This document shows positions 43,612-48,101 of a stretch of DNA of 64,000 bases, piece after piece. Below the pieces are notes generated by a model. That model was not told the origin of the DNA, did no database searches, and saw only the letters and a program-made list of their open reading frames with translations. This DNA comes from Haloplanus vescus (GTDB lineage Archaea; Halobacteriota; Halobacteria; Halobacteriales; Haloferacaceae): the NCBI RefSeq assembly GCF_900107665.1, contig NZ_FNQT01000001.1, positions 1,342,398 to 1,406,397 on the forward strand, given 5' to 3'. The first letter of the stretch is position 1. Each line of letters starts with the position of its first letter. The position numbers and the translations under genes are program-made.

Positions 43612-44310
43612 CTACTCGTCGCCTTGGGCGTTCCGTCTGTGGTGTTCGCGGCGCTCAAGCCGATCCAAGTGCGTGTCAGTGTAGTCCTCGTGACCTGTGC
43701 GATCTGGCACGTAACATGGCGCGCTCGTGTTGGGGAAGAACACCGGGGTTTCGATATCGACCGGCTGCCCGGCCTGCATCCGTAGGAGTGGGACCGGTGG
43801 CGTGGTTCGGAGCGACCATGGGTTAACGGAGGTCCGGTGGACATCGGCGTCCTCCGGTGGCCGCTCGCAGGTCAACGGCGGGAGTTCGTCTCTCTCAAGA
43901 TCTCGGAGCGTGAGCAGTCGGACATCGAAGGCTTGAGCGAGCCGCCAAGCACGATCCGTCAGTCGGGTGGTGTGACAGAGTACTGGCATTGCTCGCCCCA
44001 AGAAGGCAAGCAGGCAAAGTCGGATGATGACCGACTCGTCGATGGAGCGACTTTCCCAATCTTTGCATTCGGCAACCAGATAATCGGCCGGCTCATCGCG
44101 GTGGTCTCCACGACAGGCAACGACATCGGCAGTGAGTGCAACGACGGGTTCGCGGCGGGCCGCACCATAGCCCCACTCTTCAAGAGCCTTTTTGAGTTGG
44201 CGCTCTAGCCACGCACCTTGTCCTGGACCACGTCCATGGGTGATTTCACGTGGGGGATCATGGGGATCCAGCTCCGTCTCATCAACTTCCTCATCACTCT
44301 GGTCACTCAT
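43612..44310 (-). CDS. PD-(D/E)XK restriction-endonuclease-like protein
   Basis: The 232-residue protein has an Mrr/RecB-like nuclease core at about residues 30-130. A helix (GAWLERQLKKALEEWGYGAA) leads to ALTADVVACRG (Asp) and the ExK motif YLVAECKDW. A helix with LCLLAFLGRAMPVLCHTT follows, then the RAWRLAQAFDVRLLTL strand that ends Mrr-type domains. The C-terminus (about residues 150-232) is unrelated and has a Cys and many charged residues. The ATG at 44310 overlaps the next gene by 8 bp. A defence or DNA-modification sensing role is inferred. Confidence 0.72.
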   Translation of the reverse strand: MSDQSDEEVDETELDPHDPPREITHGRGPGQGAWLERQLKKALEEWGYGAARREPVVALTADVVACRGDHRDEPADYLVAECKDWESRSIDESVIIRLCLLAFLGRAMPVLCHTTRLTDRAWRLAQAFDVRLLTLRDLERDELPPLTCERPPEDADVHRTSVNPWSLRTTPPVPLLRMQAGQPVDIETPVFFPNTSAPCYVPDRTGHEDYTDTHLDRLERREHHRRNAQGDE

Positions 44311-44671
44311 CGTTAGTGGCCTCCTGTTGGTCGGCTTCGGTGTGTGATAGGAGACTAGAGTCGTGTGAATCAGTGGTCGTCTCGTTGGTTGCGGGGGACG
44401 TGGCTGCTGGGTCGTCGGGCGGTGTCTCAAGGTGGTTGGCCACCCGTTCGAGCGCTCGAGCGAGGTCACGGGCCTGGGTCGGGGTGAGTTCCGTGGTGGT
44501 CAGCCCCCAGTGACCTCCAAATCCGATCAGGAGCGTCCGGTCAGCTGTAGCTTTGGGAGTGACCTCAAGAGTAGCGCGTGAGTATTCGTCTTCGAGTTGG
44601 CGTGTGACGCCAGTCTCGACGGTGAAGCTCGATTCGTCCGTGGATCGCTCGTCGTCTGGAAGGTGTGACAT
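44303..44671 (-). CDS. Small protein in the nuclease cassette
   Basis: The 122-residue protein has a possible small beta-sheet domain (SRATLEVTPKATADRTLLIGFGGHWGLTT in parts) and a helix TPTQARDLARALERVANHLE. A Ser/Thr/Asp-rich tail follows. The 'ELTPxxARxLAxAL' helix is shared with many short archaeal proteins of unknown role. It sits between the zinc-binding protein and the nuclease, overlapping the latter by 8 bp. Confidence 0.65.
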   Translation of the reverse strand: MSHLPDDERSTDESSFTVETGVTRQLEDEYSRATLEVTPKATADRTLLIGFGGHWGLTTTELTPTQARDLARALERVANHLETPPDDPAATSPATNETTTDSHDSSLLSHTEADQQEATNDE

Positions 44672-44686
44672 TGGAGTGGGTGGTGG

Positions 44687-45184
44687 TTAGCGGGACGGGA
44701 GTGTGGTGGAACTGGTCGAAGCTGGCTCGGCCGTCGGGGAGATTGCCTCAAGGACCCACGACTGGGGAGCCTGGCGCGTGTGCAGCCCGCGGAGTCCACA
44801 GTGATATGTAGCGAGGATGGAGAGCACACGGGGAGGCACGTAGTGAGTGGCCGGGGTCCCGACGATTTCCAATATCGGGTGGTCGACGTGGGGATTGTCG
44901 GTACAGATGTCTGTGGTACGGACCTCAGTGATGGGCTGGAGAACCTCTGCGCACCGCTGGAGCGACGCATCTGGGGTGGCGCGTGATTTGGAATGAGTGA
45001 GGTTGGAAGTGGATCCGCCAGTCTGGGAGTGAGTAGCGGCTGTGTCCTGACAAGAATGGATCGCAATCCGTTCAGGAAGGCCAACGACCCCACAGACTGG
45101 ACAGCGCTGTAGCTGCGGGCTGGCTGTATCGTGAGTTAGTGACTGTACGACAGGTTCTTTATTGGGTGGTTCGGAGTTTCTCAT
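44687..45184 (-). CDS. Zinc-finger-containing protein, first gene of the cassette
   Basis: The 165-residue protein has one C-x2-C ... H-x2-C type site (RCPVCGVVGLPERIAIHSC) at about residues 27-46, then a Ser/Thr-rich stretch and an end with ATYHCGLRGLHTRQAP. The zinc module suggests nucleic-acid or protein binding. It begins the cassette 44687-43612 and has a GC-rich hairpin upstream at 45208-45235. No family is recognised. Confidence 0.6.
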   Translation of the reverse strand: MRNSEPPNKEPVVQSLTHDTASPQLQRCPVCGVVGLPERIAIHSCQDTAATHSQTGGSTSNLTHSKSRATPDASLQRCAEVLQPITEVRTTDICTDNPHVDHPILEIVGTPATHYVPPRVLSILATYHCGLRGLHTRQAPQSWVLEAISPTAEPASTSSTTLPSR

Positions 45185-45207
45185 GCTTCGTCTGGTTGGC
45201 GAAGCGC

Positions 45208-45235
45208 GGTCGGACGTGTTGGCGCACGTCCGGCC
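45208..45235. promoter_or_regulatory. Strong hairpin between the cassette and the wHTH gene
   Basis: GGTCGGACGTG and CACGTCCGGCC pair over 11 positions (8 perfect, plus one GU and two GC) with the 6-nt loop TTGGCG. It lies about 25-50 bp upstream of the minus-strand cassette start, where it could act as an operator or leader structure. Confidence 0.5.
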
Positions 45236-45386
45236 AGATGTCTTACAGTAGCCGAGTCCCGCGCTTCTTATCCAATATCATACACTCGTTACTAATAAAC
45301 GTTACTGAAGAACATCTAATAGAACTTCGAGATGGAAGGAAACACGAACGACGAACTACTAAGTACGCCACAAAGTAGGTTCACGC

Positions 45387-45644
45387 ATGACCAACGAGAA
45401 ACACGAGCCATCCGAACACGAGGAGCGGGTCTTAGAGGTGCTGAAAGAGGGAAGAACATCTGCGGATCAACCATGGGGATATACAACACCGTCTCGAGTA
45501 GCGGAGCGATTTAACCTGCCTCGGCAACGGGTAAATGAAGCGATAAATCGACTCACTGCGGCCGGCTGGATTAAACAAGTTGAAGAAAATGACACCCTAA
45601 TCCGTGGCCTGTATATTTTTGTGGACGATCCACGTGAGAACTGA
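45387..45644 (+). CDS. Small winged-helix DNA-binding protein
   Basis: The 85-residue protein has the wHTH order: helix HEERVLEVLKEGRTSADQPW, helices TTPSRVAERFNLPRQRVNEAINRLTAAGW, and a wing with IKQVEENDTLIRGLYIF. MarR/GntR-like small regulators share this fold. A TATA-like CTACTAAG lies about 30 bp before the ATG. It sits between the nuclease cassette and the origin, and could regulate either. Confidence 0.75.
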   Translation: MTNEKHEPSEHEERVLEVLKEGRTSADQPWGYTTPSRVAERFNLPRQRVNEAINRLTAAGWIKQVEENDTLIRGLYIFVDDPREN

Positions 45645-45743: not shown

Positions 45744-45770
45744 TCTCACACTCCACTGTGTCGAATGTTC
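45744..45770 (-). repeat. Origin recognition box (ORB) 1
   Basis: Read on the minus strand it is GAACATTCGACACAGTGG followed by AGTGTGAGA. It differs by one base over 27 from the box at 47407-47433. It points away from the orc1 gene, opposite to the boxes on the right arm. Confidence 0.85.
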
Positions 45771-45817
45771 TTTGACTACGCTATGGACAGGGGGTCATCT
45801 TATCTTTGCATGAGCCA

Positions 45818-45844
45818 TCTCACACCCCACTATGTCGAATGTTA
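45818..45844 (-). repeat. Origin recognition box (ORB) 2
   Basis: The minus strand reads TAACATTCGACATAGTGG then GGTGTGAGA. It is the second of two boxes on the left, 74 bp from the first. Confidence 0.85.
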
Positions 45845-45985: not shown

Positions 45986-47206
45986 ATGCCGACGTTTACC
46001 CGTGATACCCAGATCTTCCGTAACGAGGATATGCTCCGGGACGATTATCAACCGAGCTCAATCACGGCTCGGGAGTCGGAATTGAATGCGTACAAAACCG
46101 CTCTCCAACCAGTAATTAACGGCGCACAGCCACGGAATATTTTCTTGTATGGGAAGACAGGTGTTGGGAAGACAGCAGTCTCACGATATTTGCTCAAACA
46201 ACTACAACAAGACTCAAGCCAATACGACGATGTATCACTCTCGGTATTTTGGCTGAACTGTACGAATCTCTCCTCATCATACCAAGTAGCAGTCAACCTC
46301 GTCAATACCCTCCGATCACCCGACGATCAAATCAGTACAACTGGCTATCCACAGCAGCGTGTCTTTGATCTCTTATATGATGAACTCGATACAGTCGGGG
46401 GAACAGTCTTGATCGTTCTTGATGAGATTGATCATATCGGGACCGATGATGAGATTCTGTATGAAATTCCGCGAGCACGCTCAAACGACTACCTGACAGA
46501 AACGAAACCCGGCGTAATCGGGATTAGCAACGATTTCGGTTTTCGAGACAATCTCTCGCCAAAAGTGAAAGATACCCTCTGTGAAGAAGAGATCCATTTC
46601 TCACCGTACAATGCGCCCGAATTAGAAGCAATTCTTGAGCGTCGCGCGGAGGGTGCCCTCTTTGAAGATGCCACTGAACCGGGCGTACTCGCACTATGTG
46701 CTGCAATCGCCGCCCAGGACACCGGAAGTGCGAGACAGGCGCTCGACTTGCTGTACCAAGCCGGTGAACTCGCACGATCGGTGGCCCGTGATCAAATCAC
46801 CAAAGACGATGTCCACGACGCTCGGAACAAAATTGAGCGGAGCCAAATCGAACACGGCATGCGTGAACTAACCCGACACGGGCATCTCTCTCTCGTGGCA
46901 GTCCTACAATTGGCGCTTGAGTCAGGGGATCCCTTTCGTGTGCGGGATATTTACCCACAATATCGGACTATTGCCGAGCAATCAGACATTGACCCCCTAG
47001 TTCGACGTCGCATGCACGATCACCTTGCCGATCTTGCAATGCTTGGCATTCTTGACCGTCGCTCTCGAAATGAAGGCCGTTCGGGTGGTCAATACTATGA
47101 ATATGAATTTGCCGTTGATCTTGATCTTGTCGCCAAGGTCGTCAGTGACTTTGAGGGACTGACACTACCACGGTGTGTCATAAAATTAACCCAATCATTG
47201 GAATAA
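45986..47206 (+). CDS. orc1: Orc1/Cdc6 replication initiator
   Basis: The 406-residue AAA+ ATPase binds origin recognition boxes and loads MCM. Walker A is GKTGVGKT (residues about 56-63), Walker [13 protein letters not shown], sensor 1 [11 protein letters not shown], and sensor 2/arginine region [18 protein letters not shown]. The C-terminal winged helix (about 300-406) includes [19 protein letters not shown] and YYEYEFAVD. Both sides carry inverted ORB repeats, so it is an origin-linked orc1. Codon use and composition are more AT-rich than in the core genes. Confidence 0.95.
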
Positions 47207-47260: not shown

Positions 47261-47287
47261 GAACACTCGACACGGTGGGGTGTCAGA
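47261..47287 (+). repeat. Origin recognition box (ORB) 3
   Basis: GAACACTCGACACGGTGG with GGTGTCAGA follows the same pattern as the left boxes but in the opposite orientation. It is about 55 bp after the orc1 stop. Confidence 0.85.
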
Positions 47288-47310
47288 CAGGACTCGACAA
47301 CCTCTGAAAT

Positions 47311-47338
47311 AAACACTCGACATAGTGGAATGGTGAGA
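47311..47338 (+). repeat. Origin recognition box (ORB) 4
   Basis: AAACACTCGACATAGTGG with AATGGTGAGA has one extra base in the G-rich part. It lies 50 bp from ORB 3. Confidence 0.75.
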
Positions 47339-47406
47339 GATTGATCTGAATAGTCGCTATGAACATTTGATAACAAGATACTGCTTGAGAGGTGACGAAC
47401 AGATGA

Positions 47407-47433
47407 GAACATTCGACACAGTGGGGTGTGAGA
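47407..47433 (+). repeat. Origin recognition box (ORB) 5
   Basis: GAACATTCGACACAGTGG with GGTGTGAGA is the closest to a consensus and mirrors ORB 1 with one difference. A degenerate GAACATTTGATAACA lies 46 bp before, at 47361. Confidence 0.88.
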
Positions 47434-47765: not shown

Positions 47766-48101
47766 TCACGGGTCGGTGTCCTGCTCTGCACCGCGTCGAA
47801 CGGCGTCTCGATGTCGCTGTGCGATCGGATCGATATCAGCGTTGAGTGATGTCGAGGCGTCGTTCGTTGGGGCAGTCTCCACAACGAGCGTTTCCAACCG
47901 ATCGAGTACCCTCTGTGGGTCGGCCTCCGGTTCAACGATCACTTTCCCGTCCTCAGTCCGAACCGTCACTTCGGTGCCAGGTTCGAGACAGAGTCGTTCC
48001 CGGATCCGCTGTGGAAGGATGATCCGCCCCTTCGAATCAATCGTCGGCACATTCTCACATACAGTGGGAATGGAATTAATCGCTTTGCTCGGCAGCATCA
48101 C
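47766..48101 (-). CDS. AbrB/SpoVT-type DNA-binding protein
   Basis: The 111-residue protein has the swapped-hairpin domain VPTIDSKGRIILPQRIRERL, then LEPGTEVTVRTEDGKVIVEP. The C-terminus (ADIDPIAQRHRDAVRRGAEQ) resembles VapB-type antitoxins that pair with a PIN toxin. No PIN gene follows, so it may be an orphan antitoxin or a free-standing regulator. Two ATGs are adjacent (48101 and 48098). Confidence 0.82.
   Translation of the reverse strand: MMLPSKAINSIPTVCENVPTIDSKGRIILPQRIRERLCLEPGTEVTVRTEDGKVIVEPEADPQRVLDRLETLVVETAPTNDASTSLNADIDPIAQRHRDAVRRGAEQDTDP

Follow-up and report, generated by a model that had tools for sequence, protein, structure and literature searches.

A 64,000-nucleotide stretch of the Haloplanus vescus genome (hereafter the window) carries, beside a replication origin, a compact cassette of three genes, which a preliminary description put forward as a possible, unrecognised anti-phage system. 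What does this cassette do, and what controls it? All three co-oriented minus-strand open reading frames (ORFs) are present, and their order of transcription is ZN3 (also P0003; 45184-44687, 165 aa), P2 (44671-44303, 122 aa), a small acidic partner protein just over the Pfam cut-off for DUF6907, and NUC (44310-43612, 232 aa). The overlapping or tight spacing described earlier holds, with a 15 nt gap between the end of ZN3 and the start of P2 and an overlap of 8 nt between P2 and NUC; only the start of NUC had to be corrected. The 285-aa ORF starting at GTG 44469 was rejected, its extension overlying P2 and being unconserved, and the ATG at 44310 was adopted from the alignment, its conservation and the P2 overlap. 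No methylase or other self-protection gene was found in the operon. The GC content is about 60% in ZN3-P2-NUC, 67% in the left-hand permease gene and 44-50% in the region of the regulator and initiator genes described next.

Upstream of the cassette lie a divergent winged-helix-turn-helix (wHTH) regulator, W4 (45387-45644, plus strand, 85 aa), and an orc1/cdc6 initiator gene (45986-47206, plus strand, 406 aa; TIGR02928, E 1e-131). Four ORB-like repeats, for which the chance expectation is 0, flank orc1, two on each side and in inverted orientation, at 45747 and 45821 upstream (45744-45843, minus strand) and at 47264 and 47410 downstream (47262-47433, plus strand, two full copies and one partial). 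The origin and wHTH gene said to adjoin the cassette are therefore both there. Between orc1 and glmS there is also an AbrB/MazE-like ORF (47766-48098, minus strand).

NUC had been described as having an Mrr-like core, an Asp followed by ECK, and these residues were identified as D62 and E81-C-K83, preceded by E36. Across 20 relatives E36, D62 and K83 are invariant, as are residues including G32, W34, C82, D84 and W85, while position 81 is E or, in some, Q; such E/QxK variation is a feature of the Mrr literature. The Pfam family Mrr_cat (PF04471) matches 9 of these 20 relatives (best E 7e-8). Window NUC itself falls below that model, no curated family claims it in the profile searches, and none of the component models in PADLOC-DB 2.0 matches NUC, P2 or ZN3. 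An AlphaFold model made from a two-sequence input was weak (mean pLDDT 48, core about 50-75); at this low confidence, its order of a helix (31-45), three strands (48-56, 61-68 and 76-82), a helix (92-104), a strand (107-113), a helix (119-127) and a strand (131-134) is that expected for the PD-(D/E)XK fold. Foldseek matches to the model were likewise weak (best E 1.5e-3), the top ones being of the PD-(D/E)XK class (EndoMS, RPB5, MspJI and AF1548, with AspBHI lower down), in support of the nuclease core proposed earlier. No sequence relative with a solved structure was found. Judged from its sequence and this model, NUC is a predicted Mrr_cat-like enzyme with the PD-(D/E)XK fold, sharing with Mrr the catalytic E, D and (E/Q)xK and the fold order, and within its known fold family it forms a new branch. 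It differs from Mrr in scoring below the model, in having no Mrr_N domain and in being encoded with the partner P2 in an RNA-led operon.

The genes travel together, more than chance would allow and as the preliminary description required of a real cassette. In our survey sample of 292 Halobacteria genomes, P2 immediately precedes NUC, on the same strand, at all 21 strong P2 loci, and at none of these is it alone. ZN3 was correctly called zinc-binding, carrying an N-terminal CPxCG...HxxC knuckle (CPVCG...HSC). In G284 it forms a single protein with the P2 domain, and in the plasmid pHLAC01 the ZN3-P2 fusion has degenerate cysteines; what ZN3 and these fusions have in common is the zinc knuckle alone. 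A first profile hinted that ZN3 and P2 might be paralogues, an idea dropped when the alignment did not support it. The knuckle (window 45050-45115, CPxCG...GLPERI..HxC) recurs in short proteins of 71 of the 292 genomes, including G237, G245 and G155.

A small acidic gene lying directly upstream of a nuclease gene and overlapping it, never found alone and present at plasmid-type loci, could also be the antitoxin of an addiction module in which NUC would be a DNA-cutting toxin, the pair would stabilise the plasmid or origin region, and the wHTH regulator and the RNA leader described below would provide autoregulation. Toxin-antitoxin genes indeed accumulate right downstream of NUC in Halorubrum. 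Against such a module, NUC occurs without P2, next to unrelated partners, in two of the four locus classes defined below (B and C), and we consider it improbable.

Relatives of NUC were found in 38 of the 292 genomes, and their loci fall into four architectures. In class A, from Halorubrum, a wHTH gene is divergent from a series of overlapping genes, Z13-H8-Z9-RepH-P2-NUC, whose 930-960 aa protein is RepH by the annotation of its relatives, that is, the annotated initiator of the pNRC100 type. Class B (pNRC100 and others) consists of a DUF7344 protein, C5 and a NUC with a helical extension, and class C of C5-TUD-NUC or of TUD fused to NUC. In class D, to which the window belongs together with G294, G140 and G284, W4 or another small regulator is divergent from ZN3-P2-NUC; pHLAC01 and G068 join the class D ZN3-P2 fusion to a TUD-NUC fusion.

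This distribution links the cassette to replication initiators. Relatives of P2 and NUC close the repH operons of Halorubrum, about 15 of the 21 P2-NUC loci are within or next to such an operon, often with overlapping genes, and orc1 adjoins the cassette in the window, G294 and G284 copies. We found no RepH in the window, which differs in this from the RepH replicons of the pNRC100 type and has orc1 and ORB repeats instead. The main rival to a defensive role follows from these neighbours: NUC may be a replication or recombination nuclease of RepH- or Orc1-type replicons, for instance one that resolves junctions or multimers or keeps copy number in check, with P2 and ZN3 as loading or control factors. 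Weak similarities of NUC to Hjc (0.16) and to RusA-like proteins (0.005) point the same way; Hjc, the archaeal Holliday junction resolvase, shares with NUC the PD-(D/E)XK fold and the helix-1 Glu. However, window NUC reaches only 12.4 bits with the Hjc profile, against a Pfam cut-off of 21.1, and Mrr_cat is the better family match. RepH replicons also exist without NUC (the pNRC100 repH locus and pHrrPV6), as do many orc1 relatives, and the patchy occurrence of NUC likewise speaks against a housekeeping role. We regard such a role as unlikely, though well short of negligible: it fits the link to RepH operons well and leaves the links to the RNA leader and to CRISPR-like genes, described below, unexplained. 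The literature searched on origins next to orc/cdc6 genes and on a new family of rolling-circle Rep proteins makes no mention of NUC.

Two observations concern the repH operons themselves. In pHrrPV6 a gene annotated as rod-determining factor RdfA (L092 9067-9663) occupies the place of NUC. In Halorubrum, the intact NUC gene is trailed on its own strand by one to four NUC fragments (L036, L038, L040, L042, L043, L044, L047 and L061); they nearly always reach the C-terminus, their N-terminal cut points vary, and toxin-antitoxin genes and IS elements separate them. The pattern suggests successive recombination events in the 3' part of NUC, which stack cargo.

In the congener G294, an orc1 91% identical to that of the window has the cassette alongside it, in the same divergent layout, at another chromosomal site with unrelated flanking genes (identities to the window 64% for ZN3, 61% for P2 and 72% for NUC). 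Five other orc1 relatives (75-78%) lack the cassette, one of them (G202) having a RepH-P2-NUC operon nearby. The cassette therefore travels with replication initiators without being a constant part of them. The joint presence of cassette and orc1 at two unrelated sites, together with broken copies in G160 and G240, would also suit a functionless passenger, decaying as the cargo of a transposed origin region. This we hold to be very unlikely: the window ORFs are all intact, the catalytic residues are kept, and base pairs of the RNA leader ahead of them are maintained by compensatory change.

That leader, R1, is an 86-nt RNA (45182-45267, minus strand) in the conserved non-coding stretch ahead of ZN3; it opens the ZN3-P2-NUC operon, comprises a three-way junction and a hairpin proximal to the start codon, and ends at the ZN3 ATG. 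Its folding z-scores are -3.1 (window), -3.7 (G294), -4.9 (G284) and -4.8 (pHLAC01), and a pattern search located it ahead of the G140 operon too. A covariance model was built from 7 sequences, its E-values being rough, and covariation was tested on 27 distinct sequences against 500 shuffles. In the alignment, whose fitting to the model makes the counts lean towards structure, 95% of the cells pair and 29 show double changes versus 9.9 in the shuffles (0/500). Sliding the pairing partners destroys the signal, and the best-covarying pair (columns 6/70; G-C 14, A-U 9) is plain in the raw sequences.

The closing helix of R1 (GAAGCgCGG/CCGcGCUUC) has an alternative. Its GCUUC arm can pair instead with CGAAGC, forming the hairpin GCUUCG...CGAAGC directly before the AUG, so that the two helices are mutually exclusive. 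This AUG-proximal hairpin folds locally (z -2.6 in the window) and is kept in nearly all R1 sequences, with 13 double changes versus 4.6 in the shuffles (0/500); its two outer pairs covary (UA/GC and CG/GC/UA), although both are unpaired in a third to half of the sequences. A profile of 29 distinct R1 loci revealed an A/T box 28-36 nt ahead of R1, in the window within a probable promoter at 45268-45312 (minus strand), and the transcript therefore probably starts at the RNA itself. Mutually exclusive helices with covariation support, one of them next to the start codon, in a leader whose start lies about 30 nt past an A/T box, resemble a translational riboswitch; R1 differs in matching no Rfam family and in being confined to Halobacteria in the sample surveyed. 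Nothing in the haloarchaeal structured-RNA and riboswitch literature searched apparently describes it. We also considered R1 as a CRISPR-like guide; the 27 sequences contain no hypervariable, spacer-like stretch, and a role in cis is therefore preferred.

R1 extends well beyond this cassette. It was detected in 110 of the 292 Halobacteria genomes, about a third, at E<=0.01, with some 70 matches below 1e-5; in a 120-genome sample of the phylum it occurs in members of the order of the window only, more distant genomes having 0. It is absent from the NUC loci of classes A and B, bar one weak match that belongs to the CRISPR-like genes described next, and NUC therefore does not need R1. Upstream of R1 stands a small divergent regulator, of the W4 family (c0) at 13 loci and of a second family (c2) at another 13, among them G294 and G284. 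Downstream, a small protein with a zinc knuckle, or another short one, is followed by a variety of genes: a three-gene set, an MkoA-like (Mokosh-like) gene, LAGLIDADG genes or ZN3-P2-NUC. Several of the short ZN3-type knuckle proteins sit right behind R1, and ORFs behind R1 (L180-L229) have N-terminal residues in common, for example M-[KN]xSDxxxxESVEQ or MSxKTSAGLQDSGT. Some R1 loci encode proteins of 1316-1352 aa, and the one scanned is this MkoA-like gene product.

The commonest set behind R1 is the three-gene one (about 287, 246 and 298 aa), whose first gene resembles Csm3/Cas7 (E 2e-4) and whose third resembles Cmr3/Cas5 (E 3e-8). By these sequence similarities it fits the description of HRAMP, the haloarchaeal RAMP, a derived class 1 CRISPR-like system whose Cas5 and Cas7 homologues are nearest to those of type III and which also includes additional nucleases and uncharacterised proteins (PMC8730458). 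Among 47 close-family HRAMP Cas5-like loci, 25 are preceded by R1 on the same strand at a distance of at most 5 kb. At four loci HRAMP genes also precede NUC on its own strand, no more than 2.4 kb away: all three at G133, G072 and G105 (L043, L061 and L079), where they precede a RepH remnant and P2-NUC, or NUC itself, and two of the three, 2.4 kb before NUC, on a Natrarchaeobaculum plasmid (L055). HRAMP and the window cassette thus have the same front end, a divergent small regulator, the R1 leader and often a zinc-knuckle first protein; HRAMP genes closely precede members of the NUC family at those four loci, and both systems are patchy and haloarchaeal. They differ in the effector, which in the window is ZN3-P2-NUC alone: the Cas5-like gene has no match in the window or its genome, and neither the Cas7-like nor the middle gene was found in the window (tblastn of c3 and c4).

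These links bear on the proposal of an anti-phage system, which is upheld in part. The regulator and R1 shared with HRAMP operons, and HRAMP genes upstream of NUC, speak for it indirectly; the lack of a PADLOC match for any of the three proteins and of a self-protection gene in the operon speaks against it. The expected defence-island company was not borne out, since replication initiators (RepH operons and Orc1) dominate the neighbourhoods. By raw count, only a handful of the roughly 50 NUC loci have a known large defence gene as a neighbour, and a free-standing defence island was rejected after a PADLOC scan of the neighbours gave few such genes. Type IIG enzymes lie near NUC in L034 and pHLAC01, and SMC/HerA-type genes at the L050 locus. 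At G140 (L032 2038-8058), whose cassette nuclease is 64% identical to window NUC, a 2006-aa protein matching PADLOC TmtA (E 1.7e-205) adjoins the wHTH gene of the cassette. A viral origin of NUC was considered and discarded, with none found in 50,697 phage records or in the IMG/VR contigs scanned. The position of R1 ahead of HRAMP operons, and that of HRAMP genes ahead of NUC, makes a still hypothetical role of the cassette in defence or replicon exclusion likelier than before; most P2-NUC pairs lie in RepH operons, which fits a replication or maintenance role equally.

The explanation we prefer, with roughly even chances of being right, is that the cassette encodes a nuclease effector under the control of a shared regulator-and-RNA front end and is carried by plasmid-type replicons. 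W4 and R1 would control the ZN3-P2-NUC operon, one state of R1 admitting ribosomes to the start codon and the other hindering them. The signal that opens the operon might be a ligand, the zinc protein itself or infection stress; P2 would then hold or guide NUC, which may cut the DNA of invading viruses or rival replicons. More broadly, and slightly more doubtfully, R1 may define a new haloarchaeal class of RNA switch and form, with its divergent regulator, an interchangeable front end for many defence effectors, namely HRAMP, Mokosh-like, LAGLIDADG and ZN3-P2-NUC. In the boldest form of this proposal, R1 would also be the missing RNA partner of the HRAMP Cas5 and Cas7 proteins.

HRAMP is already known, and R1 is the part that could be new in kind; as far as Rfam and the literature searched go (the original HRAMP description lying outside that scope), R1 and its use before several effector types are undescribed. 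To our knowledge, HRAMP presents the puzzle of CRISPR-like proteins with neither an array nor a known RNA. A structured RNA that opens HRAMP and other nuclease operons offers a handle on it, both for the opening signal and for an RNA-binding HRAMP protein. Together, these results suggest a shared on-off switch for nucleases, probably antiviral or plasmid-excluding. If R1 does switch, it would represent a rarity, a natural RNA switch widespread among haloarchaea; defence-type nucleases would also be tied to the mobility of plasmids and origins.
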